In this document: positions 32,087-39,381 of the stretch, piece by piece
Layout: the number at the start of each line of letters is the position of its first letter
How positions within the stretch are numbered: position 1 is the first letter of the stretch
DNA from: Candidatus Onthomonas avicola
GTDB lineage: Bacteria > Bacillota > Clostridia > Oscillospirales > Oscillospiraceae
Direction: 5' to 3'
Length of the DNA stretch: 64,000 bases
Assembly (NCBI GenBank): GCA_018710845.1
Contig: DVJB01000041.1
Coordinates: 34,194-98,193 of the forward strand
Notes under the pieces: generated by a model
The model's input: only the letters and a program-made list of their open reading frames with translations
Told to the model about the DNA's origin: nothing
Database searches by the model: none
Position numbers and translations under genes: made by a program

Positions 32087-32119
32087 GCGCCTGCTACAAT
32101 TTCATTCATTCTGTCTCGG

Positions 32120-32143
32120 ACGGCCGGCGTTTTCGCCGGCCGT
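32120..32143 (+). terminator. Terminator-type hairpin, left copy flanking repeat R1
   Basis: 10-bp arms ACGGCCGGCG / CGCCGGCCGT around TTTT. The identical 24-bp hairpin recurs at 32385-32408. This copy lacks a T-run. Confidence 0.7.
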
Positions 32144-32384
32144 CTGCGTGTCGACAAAGTCGACACGCTCGAACAAAATCTGCGATTTTGTTCGAAATAT
32201 GCGGCCGAACCGCGCGCCCCTGCGGGGCACACTCCCGGCCTCCCTGTGTTTTTGGGCCGGTACACGCCCGTCCCAAAAACGGATTTCACTCTATTTTGTT
32301 GCTACCGCAACAAAACTCCTGCGGAGTGCTTCCCGAACTTTTCATTTTCATTTAGAATTGACAAATATGCTTTTCGACAGACTG
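32144..32384 (-). repeat. Multi-hairpin repeat, copy R1
   Basis: About 241 bp, read on the minus strand. It starts with CAGTCTGTCGAAAA and contains a chain of perfect hairpins: ACTCC/GGAGT, TTTTGTTGC/GCAACAAAA, GTGTGCCCC/GGGGCGCGC (partial), TCGAACAAAATC/GATTTTGTTCGA, and GCGTGTCGAC/GTCGACACGC. Linkers such as AAATAGAGT, ACGGGCGTGTACC and GAGTGTGC are shared with copy R2. The stem sequences differ but remain complementary. No ORF of note. The whole 32087-32549 gap is occupied by this element and its flanking hairpins, plus about 140 bases of ordinary leader before the next gene. Confidence 0.75.
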
Positions 32385-32415
32385 ACGGCCGGCGTTTTCG
32401 CCGGCCGTTTTCTGT
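32385..32415 (+). terminator. Terminator hairpin, right copy flanking repeat R1
   Basis: The same 24-bp hairpin as at 32120-32143, here followed by TTTCTG (four T counting the last stem base). It is probably the original radC terminator, now separated from radC by the repeat. Confidence 0.65.
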
Positions 32416-32549: not shown

Positions 32550-34940
32550 ATGAAGAAACTGACCGCGATCCTGCTGGCCCTGGCGATGCTCCTCTCACTG
32601 GCCGCCTGCGCGCCCGCCGCGGAGGGCGGTGCGTCCGACGGCACGGCGGGGGACGGGGCGGACGGCGTCTCCGCCGAGCCGCTCACCACCACCGGCCAGT
32701 ACCGTGAGCGCGAGATCACCCCGCCGGAGCTCAGCGACCGGGAGGGGGAGATCAGCGGCCTCTGGGCGGATGAGGACGGCGTGATCGACCTGACCTACTC
32801 CGAGTACGTCGGGGAAGAACAGACCTACACCCTCTTTCACTCCGACGACGGCGGCGAGAGCTGGACGAGCACGGCGCTGGAGGCGGACTATACCATGCGC
32901 GACAGCGCGGGCAGCCTCTACGGCGTCGAGATGGAGGGCAGCGAGGCGGCGGACGGCACGCTGACCGACCTGACGCCCTATCTCAACTACCGCCTGGCGG
33001 ACGGGACCTGCGGCCGCACCGAGCTGAAGCGGCCGGAGGGGAGCGCAGGGATTGACAGCTGGGGAAGCGCTCGCCTCGCGGGGGATCAATATATTCTCTT
33101 GATGGTCAACGACGGAGAGGAGACCTCCGACGGCTATCGGGCGGCTACCCTCTACGCCTTTGACCTCTCCACCGGCGAGACCGTCTGGCAGTACCGCAGT
33201 GAACTGGACTACATCGCCTTCAATGCGGTGGAAGACCGGGTCTATGTGCAGGAGTACGACGGCAGCGAACGGGGGACCATCCTGGACCTCGCCACCGGCG
33301 AGGCGTCCGGCACGTTTGACACCGACGTCCTGCGCGTGGACCTGTCTGACATTCTCCTGCGGCCAGACGGCGGCTACTATTATTACAGTTACGACGCCGG
33401 CGGCATCGGCTTCTCCATCCTGGACCAGGAGCTGGAGGAGGTGATCCTTGAGGGCGTGAACTATGGCTTCTCCCTCGTGAGCAACTGGGGACAGGCCATT
33501 CACGCCGTGCTCTCCGACGGGACCATCTTCTACTCCGGCACCGACGGGCAGAGCCACAGCCACGTCTTTCGCTTTGACTTTGACGCGGAGGCGGGCGCGC
33601 CCGAGGCCACGCTCGTGGTTTGGGCGCTGCAGGACACGCCGACGCTGCGCCGGGCGATGAACGCCTTCCGCCAGGCCCATCCGGAGGTGCTCATCGACTT
33701 CCAGCTCCAGTCGTTGGACTATGACGCGGGGCAGACCACCGCCGACCTGCTCAGCCGCCTCAATACGCAGCTGCTCAACGGCAGCGGCCCGGACGTCATC
33801 CTGTTTGACGGGATGGACTACACGAACTATATCGACGCCGGCGTCCTGCTCGACCTGAGCGACCTCGTGACGGATACCGACTTCGTCAGTCAGACCGTCT
33901 CGGCGATGCGGGCGGACGACGGGGGCTATTATGTCCTGCCCGCCCGCTTCTCCGTCCCCGTCCTCTACGGGGAGAACCTGGACGCCCCCGGGACGCTGGA
34001 CGCCTTGGCGGACGCGGTCTGCGCCGCGGGCGTGTCCCTCCCGGACGCCTCGCTCAGCCCGCAGGAGGGCTACGAGCTCTACGGCCCGGACGGCTATGAA
34101 TACGACTACCAGGCCCAGGAGGCGGAGGAGCGCGCCGCGCAGGTGGCCGCCGGCCTGCCCTACCTCGCCCTGAGCTCGATCTATGAGCTGGCAGAGATGA
34201 CTTGGAAGGTCAGCGCGGACACCATCCTGGACGGCGGCAGTCTGAATGAGGACGCGCTGCGCCAGTGGCTCGAACCGCTCAAGCGGATGAGCGACCACCA
34301 CGGCTTCTTCGCGGATACCGGAGCGAGCGATGAGGGAGGGAGCGCAAGCGCATTGATTGGATCGGTGGAGGAGAACGACTACGGCAACCTGGAGACAGAA
34401 ATTGGGAACAACGAGATGCTCTGGTCTGATGGGGAGGCCCTCGCGGCAGCGGCCAGCCTTCAGTCGGTGGAGCAGCTGCTGCTCGCCTCGTGGGAGCACT
34501 ACAACGTCGTGACGCAGTCCGTCCCGCTGGAGAACTTCTCCGTCGTCCCCTTCCCCGGGCTGACGGAGGGGGCCTACCAGCCGGAGGTGCTGCTGGCGGT
34601 GAACGCCGCCTCGGAGCACGCGGAACTGGGCAAGGAGTTTGTCTCCTATGCCCTCTCGATGGAGATTCAGCAGTACACCTACGGTGACGGCATGCCCGTC
34701 CTGCGCGCGGCGATGGACCAGCAGCTGGACTACTTCGCCTCCTACGCGGAGAAGTACGGCTGGGACATTGCCATGCTCGACGACCTCTTTGACACCCTGA
34801 CCACCCCGGTCGTTCTGGACGGAGGGGTCTATGAGGACGTGCTCTACACCGTGGGCGACTATCTGAGGGGGGAGGCCACGCTGGATGAAGCGGTCAGCCA
34901 GGTGCGGGAAGCGCTCGCCCTCCGCCTCGCGGAGCAGTAA
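32550..34940 (+). CDS. Lipoprotein: beta-propeller-like domain fused to ABC solute-binding domain
   Basis: 796 residues. Lipoprotein signal LALAMLLSLAAC (Cys about 20). Residues about 45-340 are beta-rich with an Asp-box-like FHSDDGGESW and blade-like segments (AATLYAFDLSTGETVWQY), consistent with a propeller. Residues about 350-796 look like a type-1 extracellular solute-binding protein (ATLVVWALQDTPTLRRAMNAFRQAHPEVLIDF, LNGSGPDVILFDGMDY). ATG 32550 has AGGAGGTAA. Two permease genes follow. A propeller joined to a binding protein is unusual. The ligand is unknown; a sugar or glycan is guessed from the permease type. Confidence 0.8.
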   Translation: MKKLTAILLALAMLLSLAACAPAAEGGASDGTAGDGADGVSAEPLTTTGQYREREITPPELSDREGEISGLWADEDGVIDLTYSEYVGEEQTYTLFHSDDGGESWTSTALEADYTMRDSAGSLYGVEMEGSEAADGTLTDLTPYLNYRLADGTCGRTELKRPEGSAGIDSWGSARLAGDQYILLMVNDGEETSDGYRAATLYAFDLSTGETVWQYRSELDYIAFNAVEDRVYVQEYDGSERGTILDLATGEASGTFDTDVLRVDLSDILLRPDGGYYYYSYDAGGIGFSILDQELEEVILEGVNYGFSLVSNWGQAIHAVLSDGTIFYSGTDGQSHSHVFRFDFDAEAGAPEATLVVWALQDTPTLRRAMNAFRQAHPEVLIDFQLQSLDYDAGQTTADLLSRLNTQLLNGSGPDVILFDGMDYTNYIDAGVLLDLSDLVTDTDFVSQTVSAMRADDGGYYVLPARFSVPVLYGENLDAPGTLDALADAVCAAGVSLPDASLSPQEGYELYGPDGYEYDYQAQEAEERAAQVAAGLPYLALSSIYELAEMTWKVSADTILDGGSLNEDALRQWLEPLKRMSDHHGFFADTGASDEGGSASALIGSVEENDYGNLETEIGNNEMLWSDGEALAAAASLQSVEQLLLASWEHYNVVTQSVPLENFSVVPFPGLTEGAYQPEVLLAVNAASEHAELGKEFVSYALSMEIQQYTYGDGMPVLRAAMDQQLDYFASYAEKYGWDIAMLDDLFDTLTTPVVLDGGVYEDVLYTVGDYLRGEATLDEAVSQVREALALRLAEQ

Positions 34941-35790
34941 GCGCCGCCGCCGGGAGGCGGCCTGGGCCCTCGCCTTCCTCGCGCCCAGCCTGGCGGGGCT
35001 GGCGGTGTTCGTCCTCGCCCCCTTTGTGGAGACGGTGCGCCGCTCCTTCACCAACGCCCTCGGCACGCGGTGGATGGGGCTGGCGAACTACCGCAGCGTG
35101 CTCTCCAACGCTGCCTTCCGCCTCGCCGCGGCAAACACGGCCCGCTTTCTCGCCTGCTGCCTGCCGCTGCTGCTGGGGCTCTCGCTGCTGCTGGCGCTGC
35201 TGGTGCGCGCGCGGCGCGGGCGCGGCGGGGTGTTTCAGACCACCTTTCTGCTGCCGATGGCGGTGCCGGTGAGCGCGATTGTCCTGCTCTGGCGGGTGCT
35301 CTTTGACGCCAACGGCCTGGCCAATGGCCTGCTCGTCTCGCTGGGGGCGCAGCCGGTGGACTTTCTGGGCACAGACGCGGCCTTCTGGGTGCTGGTGGCG
35401 ACCTATCTCTGGAAAAACGCAGGCTATGACATGATTCTCTGGCTGGCCGGACTGGACGCCATCTCCCGCGACCTCTATGACGCGGCGGCGGCGGACGGGG
35501 CGGGGACGTGGCAGCAGTTTCGCTACATCACCCTCCCCGGCCTCGCGCCCACGGCGGGGGTGGTGGGCCTGCTCTCGCTGATCAACACCTTCAAGGTCTT
35601 CCGCGAGGCCTATCTCGTCGCGGGCCGCTACCCGCACGAGAGCATGTACCTGCTCCAGCACCTGTTCAACAACTGGTTCCTCAGCCTGGACATGGGCCGC
35701 CTGACCGCGGCGGCGGTGCTGCTGGTGCTGGCGCTGCTGGCGGTGCTGCTGCCGGCGCGCCGGCTCTGGCGGCTGGAGGAGAGGACATGA
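34885..35790 (+). CDS. ABC importer permease (sugar type, MalF/UgpA-like)
   Basis: 301 residues with six predicted membrane helices, starting LAFLAPSLAGLAVFVLAPFVETVRRSF, typical of MalF/UgpA-like permeases. The EAA loop is DLYDAAAADGAGTWQQFRYITLPGL, which contacts an ATPase. ATG 34885 has GGAGG upstream and lies inside the end of the binding-protein gene (56-base overlap). No later in-frame start precedes the first helix. It pairs with the next permease; no ATPase is encoded in the operon. Confidence 0.88.
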   Translation: MKRSARCGKRSPSASRSSKRRRREAAWALAFLAPSLAGLAVFVLAPFVETVRRSFTNALGTRWMGLANYRSVLSNAAFRLAAANTARFLACCLPLLLGLSLLLALLVRARRGRGGVFQTTFLLPMAVPVSAIVLLWRVLFDANGLANGLLVSLGAQPVDFLGTDAAFWVLVATYLWKNAGYDMILWLAGLDAISRDLYDAAAADGAGTWQQFRYITLPGLAPTAGVVGLLSLINTFKVFREAYLVAGRYPHESMYLLQHLFNNWFLSLDMGRLTAAAVLLVLALLAVLLPARRLWRLEERT

Positions 35791-36629
35791 GGCGCGCGGC
35801 GGTGCTGGCGGTCCTTCTTGTCCTCGCGCTGCTGGTGTGGTGGCCGCTCTGGTTCATCCTGATGGGGGTCTTTCTGCCCGCCGACGAGCTGAACCTGCTC
35901 CTCGGCCCCATCTTTGACGCGGCGGCGGAGCGCTATGCCGCCTGGACCCTCCTGCCGAGCTGGCCGACGCTCCAGCCGCTGGCCGAGCTGCTGCTGGACA
36001 CGCCGGAGTTCTTCATCGTCTTCTGGAACAGCTGCGCCCTCGCCTTTCCGCAGGTGCTGGGGCAGTTCCTGGTGGGCGCGCCGGCGGCGTGGGCGTTTGC
36101 GCGGCTGCGCTTTCCGGGGCGGCGGGCGCTGTTTGCGCTCTATGTGGTGCTCATGCTCCTGCCGTTCCAGGTGACGATGGTGCCCAGCTACCTGGTGCTC
36201 GACGCCCTGGGGCTGATGGACACCCGCTGGGCGGTGATCCTGCCCGGCGTCTTCTCCACCTATCCGGTGTTCATCATGGCCCGCGGCTTTGAGGCGATCC
36301 CGGCCAGCGTGGTGGAGGCGGCGGAGCTGGACGGGGCGGGGCAGTGGGAGATCTTCCTGCGGCTGGGCCTGCCGATGGGGCTGCCCTCCATCATCTCCGC
36401 GCTCGTCCTCGGCTTTCTGGACGCCTGGGGCGCGGTGGAGCAGCCGATGACCTTTTTGGAGACGCCCGCCCTCTGGCCGCTCACCCTCTACCTGCCCGAG
36501 GTGGTGGAGGAGAATCTGGGCGTGTCCATGGCGGCGGGCTTTCTGGCCCTGATGCCGGCCTTGCTCATCTTCCTGTTCGGGCAGCGCTATCTGGAACAGG
36601 GCATTTTACAGGGAGCGGTGAAAGAGTGA
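35787..36629 (+). CDS. ABC importer permease (sugar type, MalG/UgpE-like)
   Basis: 280 residues from ATG 35787, overlapping the previous stop by ATGA; the track start at 35508 is artefactual. Six membrane helices. The EAA motif is SVVEAAELDGAGQWEIFLRLGLPMGLP. It lacks the usual long MalG N-terminus but otherwise fits the carbohydrate permease family. It probably forms a heterodimer with the preceding permease and uses a shared ATPase of the MsmX/MsmK type encoded elsewhere. Confidence 0.87.
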   Translation: MRRAAVLAVLLVLALLVWWPLWFILMGVFLPADELNLLLGPIFDAAAERYAAWTLLPSWPTLQPLAELLLDTPEFFIVFWNSCALAFPQVLGQFLVGAPAAWAFARLRFPGRRALFALYVVLMLLPFQVTMVPSYLVLDALGLMDTRWAVILPGVFSTYPVFIMARGFEAIPASVVEAAELDGAGQWEIFLRLGLPMGLPSIISALVLGFLDAWGAVEQPMTFLETPALWPLTLYLPEVVEENLGVSMAAGFLALMPALLIFLFGQRYLEQGILQGAVKE

Positions 36630-38362
36630 ACAAAAATATCAGAGAACGCGCGGCCCTCTCCGCCGCACCGGAGAGGAGAGAGCGGGACGGCCTGCTGCGC
36701 CGGCTGCGGCGGCCCCGCCGCCTGCGCACGCCGTCCGCGCCGGACGAGCGGGAGGAGCAGTGCGGCCAGCGCCGCGCGGCGGGGCGGATTGCGGCCTTCT
36801 TCGTGCTTATGCTAGCGCTGACGCTCTTTGCCCGGGGCATGGCGGCGGCCGCCGCCACCGAGGTGGAGGTGACCGCCCCCCAGCGCGCGCAGGTGACGGA
36901 GGAGACGGTCTTCTCCGGCACGCTGGAGAGCCAGACGACCGAGACCCTCACCCTCCCGGAGGGGCTGACGGTGCGCAGCGTCTACGTCTCCGCCGGGCAG
37001 GCGGTGGAGGAGGGGGAGGCGCTGCTGGCGGTGGACACGGATGCGCTTAGCAGCGCCCTCACCCGCGCCCAGGGCGAGCTGGACCGGCTGAATTTACAGT
37101 TGGCGGGCTATCAGGAACCGGAGGAGGCGGACGACAGCGCCCTCACCTCCGCCGAGACCGGCCTGGCGCGCGCCCGGGAGGACGCGCAGTCCGCCGCCGC
37201 CGACCAGTCGCGCGCCCTCTCCCGCGCGGAGGAGGCTCTGGCAGATGCCCGCACGCAGCGCGACCAGGCGCAAGCGGACCTCGCCGCGCTGGAGGCCAGC
37301 CGGGACGCCCTGCGCCAGACGCTGGAGGACCAGTACGCCGCGCGGGACGAACTGCAATCGCAGCTCGACGCCGCCCCAGAACCTCCGGACTCCGAAGCTC
37401 CGGATGCGCAGGACCCAGAGCGCGGCGCGGCGGATAACAGCGGAGTCCGGGAGCAGCTCGACGCGCTCAACGCGCAGATCACGGAAGACGAGGCGGCGCT
37501 GGAGACACTGGAGGGCCAAATCGAGGCGGCCCGGGACGCCGTCCGGAGCGCGCAGGATACTGTGGACGCCGCCGCTGACAGCCTAGAGGACGCGCAGTCC
37601 GCCGCCCAGGACACCCGGCGCTCCAATCAGCGCAGCGTGGAGGACGCCGAGGACGCGCTGACCCAGGCACAGGAGGACTACGCCGGCGCCCAGGCGGACG
37701 CGGAGACCCAGAATTTGCAGAATCAGACGGAGGCGGAGCTGCTGGCCGTCACCATCGCCGAACAGGAGGCACTTGTGCGGCAGCTGGAGGAGCTCCAAGC
37801 GGCGGACGGCGTCCTCGCCGCCCCGGTGGACGGCACAGTGCGCGCGCTGGAGGGCACGGAGGACGGCGGGGCAGTCTCCGTCACCTTCACGGTGCGCAGC
37901 GACGGCTATCTTCTCACCCTGACCGGGGACGAACTGCAGGAGCTGACCGTGGGGGACGCGCTTACCGTCTCTCAGGGGGAGGAACAGACCGGCCAGACGG
38001 CGCTCGCCACCCTCACCCAGTCGGAGGAGGGGGAGTGGACGGCCACCGCCCGCCTCACCGGCGGCGGCTGGACGGACGGGAGCGCCGAGGCGCGGATTGT
38101 CAGCTCCAGTGAGACCTATGACCTCACCGTCCCCGCAGCGGCCTGCCATACGGACAACGGCGGCTCCTTCGTCTACGTCGCCGAGCTGCGCGAGTCGGTG
38201 CTCGGGATGCGCTATGTCGTCCGGCGCGAGCCGGTCAACCTGCTGGCGAGCGACGGCGCCACGGCGGCGGTGGACGGCATCCTCAGCGGTGAGAGCCTGG
38301 TCATCTGCGGCGCGACCCGCTCCGTACAGGAGGGGGAGACCGTGCGGGTGGCATCTTCATGA
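36626..38362 (+). CDS. HlyD/MacA-type adaptor with long coiled coil
   Basis: 578 residues from GTG 36626 (GTGA overlap with the permease stop); the track start at 36344 lies in another gene. A basic cytoplasmic N-terminus and one membrane helix (about 52-72) are followed by a barrel/lipoyl half (GTLESQTTETLTLPEGLTVRSVYVSAGQAVEEGEALL). Next comes a coiled coil of about 230 residues rich in Ala/Asp/Gln, the second lipoyl half (AAPVDGTVRAL) and beta domains. Such adaptors normally serve MacB-type or other exporters. Here one sits between importer permeases and a MacB-like protein. Confidence 0.82.
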   Translation: MNKNIRERAALSAAPERRERDGLLRRLRRPRRLRTPSAPDEREEQCGQRRAAGRIAAFFVLMLALTLFARGMAAAAATEVEVTAPQRAQVTEETVFSGTLESQTTETLTLPEGLTVRSVYVSAGQAVEEGEALLAVDTDALSSALTRAQGELDRLNLQLAGYQEPEEADDSALTSAETGLARAREDAQSAAADQSRALSRAEEALADARTQRDQAQADLAALEASRDALRQTLEDQYAARDELQSQLDAAPEPPDSEAPDAQDPERGAADNSGVREQLDALNAQITEDEAALETLEGQIEAARDAVRSAQDTVDAAADSLEDAQSAAQDTRRSNQRSVEDAEDALTQAQEDYAGAQADAETQNLQNQTEAELLAVTIAEQEALVRQLEELQAADGVLAAPVDGTVRALEGTEDGGAVSVTFTVRSDGYLLTLTGDELQELTVGDALTVSQGEEQTGQTALATLTQSEEGEWTATARLTGGGWTDGSAEARIVSSSETYDLTVPAAACHTDNGGSFVYVAELRESVLGMRYVVRREPVNLLASDGATAAVDGILSGESLVICGATRSVQEGETVRVASS

Positions 38363-39381
38363 GGCGGCTGCGCCCGGCCGTGCGCTTTCTGCTGCCCGCC
38401 CTGGCGGAGGTGATCTGCCTGCTGCTGGCCTGGCAGGCCGCGGCGGCGGTGGCGGACCTGTATCCCGCGGCCGTCTCCCTGCGCTACCGCGCGCCGCTGA
38501 CCGCCGCCGAGATGGCGCAGGCGGAGCAGCCGGAGGAGACAGAGGAGACAGAGGAGGGCGCGCAGCTGCGCCTCGCCGCCGCCTGGTATGAGGAGGAGGG
38601 GGAGGCCGCCCTCACCAACACTGTCCGGACAGCGACTGCCGTCCGCTACCGGGGCGACCGCGCGGCGATTGCCCGTCTCACCTATCTCTCCGGCGGCGAG
38701 CCGGGGGCGCAGGAGGATGCCGCGCTGGTCTCGGAGGGCTTTGCCCGCGCCCTCTGGGGCAGCGCCGACGTGCTCGGCCAGACCTTCTCCTGGCAGGGCG
38801 AGCGCTTCACCGTCTGCGGTGTTTACGAGGGAGAGGACGGCCTCTACCTCCCGCAGAAGGGCCGGGAGGGGTTTTGCTGCCTGGAGCTGACCGGCCCGGC
38901 GGAGGACCCGGTGGGCGCGGCCCTGGACTTCACCGCCCGCACCGGGCTGGACGGCTGGGACGGGGCGGTATGGGGGACGGCGGGCGGGGTGCTGCTGCGC
39001 CTGCTGGTCTGGCTGCCGCCGCTGGCGGGCGCGCTGTGGGCGCTCTGTCGTCTGGCCCGGCTGTCTTGGCCGCGGCGCGGAGCGGCGCGGTATGCGCTGG
39101 CCGCGGCGGCCGTTCTCCTGCTGGGCGCGCTGCTTCCGATGGGGGCGGCGTATCTGCCGGGCTGGCTCACACCGCCGCAGTGGAGCGACTTCTCCTTCTG
39201 GTACCAGCTCTGGCGCAGCGCCGGGGCGCGGCTGGAGGAGTGGTTCCGCCTGCCGGTCTGGGAGAAGGACGTGGAGGCCAAGCGGACGCTGCTGGTTTGG
39301 CTGGGCGGCTGGCTGGGCAGCGCGGCGGCTCTTGCGGCGCTCAAAGAGGGGCTGCTGCGCGCCGCGCCGCGTGGAGACTAG
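38359..39381 (+). CDS. Membrane protein with MacB-like extracellular domain
   Basis: 340 residues. A first membrane helix (about 8-34) is followed by an external region of about 165 residues that includes a MacB periplasmic-core-like stretch (ALVSEGFARALWGSADVLGQTFSWQGERFTVCGVYE). Three further hydrophobic segments follow (about 204-225, 243-270 and 310-328). It is shorter than a full FtsX/MacB permease and has no ATPase domain. It overlaps the adaptor gene by four bases, so the two probably form a complex. Function unknown. Confidence 0.6.
   Translation: MRRLRPAVRFLLPALAEVICLLLAWQAAAAVADLYPAAVSLRYRAPLTAAEMAQAEQPEETEETEEGAQLRLAAAWYEEEGEAALTNTVRTATAVRYRGDRAAIARLTYLSGGEPGAQEDAALVSEGFARALWGSADVLGQTFSWQGERFTVCGVYEGEDGLYLPQKGREGFCCLELTGPAEDPVGAALDFTARTGLDGWDGAVWGTAGGVLLRLLVWLPPLAGALWALCRLARLSWPRRGAARYALAAAAVLLLGALLPMGAAYLPGWLTPPQWSDFSFWYQLWRSAGARLEEWFRLPVWEKDVEAKRTLLVWLGGWLGSAAALAALKEGLLRAAPRGD

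Follow-up and report, generated by a model that had tools for sequence, protein, structure and literature searches.

Why are parts of a sugar importer and parts resembling an efflux pump encoded as one unit, and what would power them? The question arises from five overlapping open reading frames at positions 32550-39381 of a 64,000-nucleotide stretch of a Candidatus Onthomonas avicola contig (the window). All five lie on the plus strand and encode a binding lipoprotein, two permeases (F and G), a HlyD/MacA-type adaptor and a MacB-like membrane protein (Table 1). Consecutive genes overlap by 56, 4, 4 and 4 nt, and the start codon used within the 56-nt overlap between the binding-protein and permease F genes is the sole one in the permease F frame near there. 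We confirmed that the reading frames are real and correctly placed and that they form a translationally overlapping five-gene operon. Such overlap shows co-expression, which is short of complex formation. No ABC ATPase gene lies between 32550 and 39381. Loss of a dedicated ATPase through an assembly error was ruled out, because the operon is internal to a 98-kb contig, with radC-like and flavoprotein genes on either side. As named from the sequence, the 5' flank has a repeat and genes resembling pyrE and radC, and the 3' flank has a flavoprotein gene; no adjoining sugar-degrading genes were recognized. The repeat is dispersed in the genome as about 20 long copies (65-93% identical), and the copy 5' of the operon occupies the place of a divergent two-component system in the sibling species.

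Table 1. Features of the operon and its 5' repeat, in window positions and protein residues.
Feature	Residues	Position	Strand	Remarks
Dispersed repeat, ~240 bp		32119-32408	.	25-nt repeat at both ends (32119-32143, 32384-32408); context, outside the transporter
Solute-binding lipoprotein, 796 aa		32550-34940	+	Pfam SBP_bac_1 8.5e-16
Permease F, CUT1 type, 301 aa		34885-35790	+	Pfam BPD_transp_1 1e-11
Permease F EAA loop	199-218	35479-35538	+	G and P invariant in 79/79 aligned members
Permease G, CUT1 type, 280 aa		35787-36629	+	Pfam BPD_transp_1 1.4e-14
Permease G EAA loop	177-196	36315-36374	+	D, G and P present in 80/80 aligned members
HlyD/MacA-type adaptor, 578 aa		36626-38362	+	GTG is the putative start; weak Pfam Biotin_lipoyl_2
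MacB-like protein, 340 aa		38359-39381	+	Pfam MacB_PCD 2e-4, under the cut-off when taken alone
MacB-like protein, TM1	4-34
MacB-like protein, MacB-type extracellular domain	37-205
MacB-like protein, TM2	206-235
MacB-like protein, TM3	242-264
MacB-like protein, conserved LPGWLTPPQWSDFSFW loop	266-281
MacB-like protein, TM4	302-335

We used permease G alone to query 84,980 species genomes, which returned 172 relatives, 80 of which were kept. Loci with more than 3.2 kb of sequence 3' of permease G were considered testable, and adaptor and MacB-like genes followed permease G in all 63 of them (62 by script; in the 63rd, L048, the adaptor is present in an overlapping frame). This conservation bears out the first-pass annotation, which had read the importer and exporter-type parts as a single unit, and it removes the concern that the gene order might exist only here. 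The co-occurrence likewise rejects a chance gene neighborhood and a fusion of two operons specific to the window. The loci belong to Oscillospiraceae (with Gemmiger, Faecalibacterium and Ruthenibacterium), termite Defluviitaleaceae, Lachnospiraceae (among them C. clostridioforme and C. citroniae), Alkaliphilus and rumen lineages resembling Christensenella; the system occurs in many gut, rumen and termite-gut Firmicutes. Within the window group, a 4-nt overlap is the commonest adaptor/MacB-like junction. As the sole query in its own family, the MacB-like protein found matches in only 8 of 300 genomes because it diverges fast. A profile search with the same protein recovered a third group within the order, along with members from other parts of the phylum. 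The possibility that the weak MacB profile matches were ordinary MacBs was rejected, since 14 of the 20 fetched regions are complete members of the system, mostly with two-helix MacB-like proteins. Two further loci (L142, L145) have an adaptor and a MacB-like gene and no ATPase recognized close by. In one locus of the same genus (L089, 549-5556), a repeat array and a Cas2-like reading frame, resembling a CRISPR locus, stand directly 3' of the MacB-like gene.

The transporter belongs, by family, to the CUT1 importers. Both permeases carry the BPD_transp_1 domain and an EAA loop, and the permeases of the system form a group separate from the plain CUT1 ones (support 100/100) in a tree that included eight plain sequences and returned long-branch warnings. 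With so few plain CUT1 permeases and these warnings, the tree suggests a single origin of the system permeases. The binding lipoprotein starts with a signal peptide whose lipobox cysteine, C20, is invariant in 38 members. Its residues ~50-345 are predicted to be all-beta and match profiles of PQQ, BNR and designed propellers; this N-terminal domain is classed as beta-propeller-like. Residues 350-796 have the CUT1 sugar-binding fold in the predicted structure (AF2 pLDDT 83), with C. thermocellum CbpC as the best match (Z 27.6), which, together with the SBP_bac_1 match, identifies it as a sugar-family SBP of type I. The binding protein of group 2 is homologous to it across most of its length (hhalign 99.1 %). 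Three loci of the same genus (L010, L011 and L014) have the first binding-protein gene between permease G and the adaptor, and a second binding protein of the propeller type, divergently oriented, beside two-component genes. The sole plasmid match was a binding-protein homologue with 31% identity on a 305-kb Subdoligranulum variabile plasmid (OY725868.1, 255766-257166).

Where would the energy come from? Use of a common MsmX-type ATPase by several such importers is established (PMC7658222). A single TOBE_2 ATPase is encoded in the genome of the window species (G000:C59:4374-5528). It is of the UgpC/MsmX type and stands as an orphan, and it is the candidate for the MsmX-type partner that the first-pass annotation had proposed to look for. 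The genome also has six other CUT1 clusters, of the SBP-permease-permease type, with neither an ATPase nor pump parts, one of which (L154) has no recognized SBP. An ATPase of the UgpC type is encoded inside the cluster in at least 12 relatives (L091, L092, L093, L137, L138, L139, L185, L186 and L188-L191). Three of these were run through NCBIfam; two matched UgpC above the cut-off, and the third had UgpC as its best match below it. A MalK/UgpC-type ATPase is, then, available to the system, as an orphan in this genome and co-encoded in relatives. Given the orphan, the other importers devoid of ATPases and the in-cluster copies, the absence of an ATPase gene from the operon is ordinary rather than remarkable, as it had first been taken to be, and the natural motor would be that of the importer.

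No LolD/MacB-type ATPase, fused or adjacent, was found in the fetched clusters of the system, which have UgpC types only. Among the other MacB-type loci of the phylum search, 20 of 22 have a 225-256 aa ATPase adjoining MacB, and the only one run through NCBIfam, from the control locus L146, matches MacB/LolD types. The first-pass annotation had also asked whether the adaptor gene repeatedly adjoins a full MacB in relatives. The true MacAB loci that we fetched had an adaptor of their own together with an FtsX-type MacB and a 220-256 aa ATPase, and the partner of the window-type adaptor was the MacB-like protein, which appears uncoupled from an ATPase.

The MacB-like protein retains the MacB-type extracellular domain. 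Of 31 diverse members, 29 have a Pfam match to MacB_PCD, the strongest at 2e-17, and the predicted structure of the window protein (pLDDT 91) gives the same best score, Z 14.2, with the extracellular domain of YknZ and with 5xu1, a MacB-like permease from S. pneumoniae. The profile alignment with true MacB covers 135 columns, all within this domain. Pfam detected no FtsX domain (PF02687) in any of 36 window-type or 31 diverse members and detected it in all three true MacBs used as a positive control (about 1e-20). In MacB, the major coupling helix sits between TM2 and TM3 (PMC5985334). By hydropathy estimates, the corresponding link is mostly 8-22 aa long in the window-type members and about 23-44 aa, without a coupling motif, in group 2. 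The REIGxLRAxG coupling motif is absent from the MacB-like proteins, and most of those in group 3 have two membrane helices in total (L131 and L141 are four-helix exceptions, also by hydropathy). The link of the window protein is, from its sequence, too short for a coupling helix; the longer link of group 2 could still contact an ATPase. By sequence, the protein keeps the MacB extracellular domain with the helix on either side of it and has lost the FtsX domain and the ATPase-coupling helix. It is not classed as a MacB transporter, because the two defining features that were tested, the FtsX domain with its coupling helix and the LolD/MacB-type ATPase, are both missing.

These results bear on an alternative in which the operon encodes two machines, a normal CUT1 importer and an exporter like MacAB, with an unlinked LolD-type ATPase to drive its MacB part. 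The ATPase is indeed a separate protein in YknY/YknZ and Spr0694/0695 (PMC5985334), and an exporter partner could exist among the about 60 strong ABC ATPase matches in the genome; an ATPase of another type may also work on the MacB-like protein in trans. Yet the missing FtsX domain and motif, the two-helix proteins that prevail in group 3, and the contrast between 20 fetched MacAB-type loci with an ATPase beside MacB and system clusters with UgpC types only make separate machines very improbable.

The adaptor of the window has the full set of parts expected of its kind: a TM helix (residues ~55-73) as the anchor, a half-lipoyl segment (~105-137), a coiled-coil hairpin (~138-396) and then the second half-lipoyl, a C-terminal beta-barrel and a membrane-proximal domain. 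Its profile matches MexJ, ZneB, MacA and EmrA in the PDB at 5e-14 to 6e-7. Some relatives are reduced. The distance between the half-lipoyl motifs is 259 aa in the window and about 155 in group 2, adaptors of the termite Defluviitaleaceae reach 790 aa, and two others (L131, 5301-5984; L141, 4919-5323) are cut down to the anchor and C-terminal domain (228 and 135 aa), with neither lipoyl domain nor hairpin. Hence the hairpin ranges from absent to very long, and the TM anchor and C-terminal membrane-proximal domain alone are constant. The C-terminal region is the part of efflux adaptors that recognizes the transporter (PMC4446572), so that the constant core of the system would be the membrane-proximal domain with the MacB-type extracellular domain. 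In many rumen/Christensenella-like loci of group 2 (for example L076, 1949-4740), the binding-protein gene is preceded by genes for a surface protein of the LRR_5 (BspA) type and for an additional HlyD-type adaptor, which is shorter.

A rival reading is a pump working in reverse, with the adaptor as a sealed tube over the permeases that conducts a large or amphiphilic substrate inward. The very long ones, here and in the longer adaptors of the termite Defluviitaleaceae, could cross the inner wall zone, and the adaptors of Gram-positive MacA relatives assemble as hexameric channels (PMC5985334). A tube cannot, however, be the common core function, because L131 and L141 lack the hairpin and lipoyl parts, and we consider this mode of action improbable.

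Considering the features above, we infer the complex and its mechanism as follows, and hold it fairly probable that the operon encodes a CUT1 ABC importer with an extracytoplasmic collar, uncoupled from ATPase, of adaptor and pseudo-MacB. The CUT1 permeases would move the substrate inward, energized by a UgpC/MsmX-type ATPase that some relatives encode in the cluster and that would be supplied here in trans by the single orphan copy of the genome. Without the parts needed for ATPase drive, the MacB-like protein probably forms a collar or docking site on the outside of the importer and would serve as an anchor, not as an energized pump. As in MacAB, its extracellular domain would bind the adaptor at the membrane-proximal domain of the latter. 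The two proteins may form a ring or collar beside the permeases and hold the binding lipoprotein in place or align it. In lineages with long hairpins, the collar could project as far as the wall zone. A two-component system, present in most window-type relatives, may report on the process or its substrate.

Each half of the proposed importer has known counterparts. Like the CUT1 importers energized by MsmX/MsmK (MdxEFG, AraNPQ, GanSPQ), the system has a binding lipoprotein of the CUT1 fold, two permeases with EAA loops and a UgpC/MsmX-type ATPase that is shared or co-encoded. The known importers of this kind, however, have neither an adaptor nor a subunit resembling MacB, and they usually work with a binding protein of about 400-450 aa that has no propeller. 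MacAB, YknWXYZ and Spr0693-0694-0695 (SpMacAB) share with it the HlyD/MacA-type adaptor gene beside a protein with the MacB-type extracellular domain. They differ in that the present system is devoid of the LolD/MacB-type ATPase, FtsX domain and coupling helix, mostly lacks TM3 and TM4 in group 3, and is joined to CUT1 permeases and an SBP. The closest published hybrid that we found in the open-access literature is YtrBCDEF, a Gram-positive operon that combines a two-permease ABC module with the MacB-like YtrF and is tied to envelope stress. However, the C-terminus of B. subtilis YtrF is FtsX-like and the ytr operon encodes two ATPases of its own (PMC8060467), with no adaptor, CUT1 permeases or SBP_bac_1 lipoprotein. 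LitOPAI was rejected as such a hybrid, being an ordinary exporter (PMC11559062). We found no published description of the combination of importer, adaptor and MacB-like protein in the open-access literature searched.

BceAB-BceS is another Firmicutes system in which a membrane protein of the MacB superfamily is tied to a two-component system, and it provides the model for another reading, in which adaptor and MacB-like protein sense flux or the envelope and signal to an adjacent histidine kinase, with the importer supplying the ligand signal. Of 37 window-type loci, 34 have an upstream gene for a histidine kinase, a response regulator or both (Pfam confirms the two-component type for five genes from four loci). 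In the sibling species (L009), a response regulator is directly upstream of the operon. Such genes also stand beside the phylum-level loci L188-L191, two of which (L189, 13069-16188; L190, 319-2140; Desulfitobacterium-like) adjoin vanR and vanS genes and one (L189) also a vanI-type D-Ala-D-Lac ligase gene. The link to sensing suggested in the first-pass annotation has, to this extent, circumstantial support, but it fails at the window locus itself: the window species has no two-component gene there, and its genome has no orthologue of the L009 response regulator (best match 44%). In groups 2 and 3, too, most loci have no two-component system next to them. BceB, moreover, is an energized permease of the FtsX type that carries the FtsX module and its own ATPase and works with no binding protein, adaptor or importer permeases, whereas the MacB-like proteins lack that module. 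Thus, even with the precedent of MacB-type proteins acting as sensors in BceAB-S (PMC5985334), we regard a dedicated sensor module as unlikely.

The importer with an uncoupled collar leads to a broader and more tentative proposal, to which we give slightly less than even confidence: that these operons encode a tripartite importer of Gram-positive envelopes, in which an assembly derived from MacAB and freed from motor coupling is obligate and delivers or gates the substrate. ABC importers and tripartite export machinery have so far been treated as separate worlds. If the proposal is true, export scaffolds can be recruited for uptake, and long-hairpin adaptors would have a role in bacteria without an outer membrane. 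The separation of the extracellular MacB domain from ATP-driven mechanotransmission would be a natural experiment on the role of the domain itself. The proposal would also explain what many genes do in Clostridia from gut, rumen and termites, genes that annotation by name probably records as 'sugar permease', 'efflux adaptor' or 'hypothetical'.
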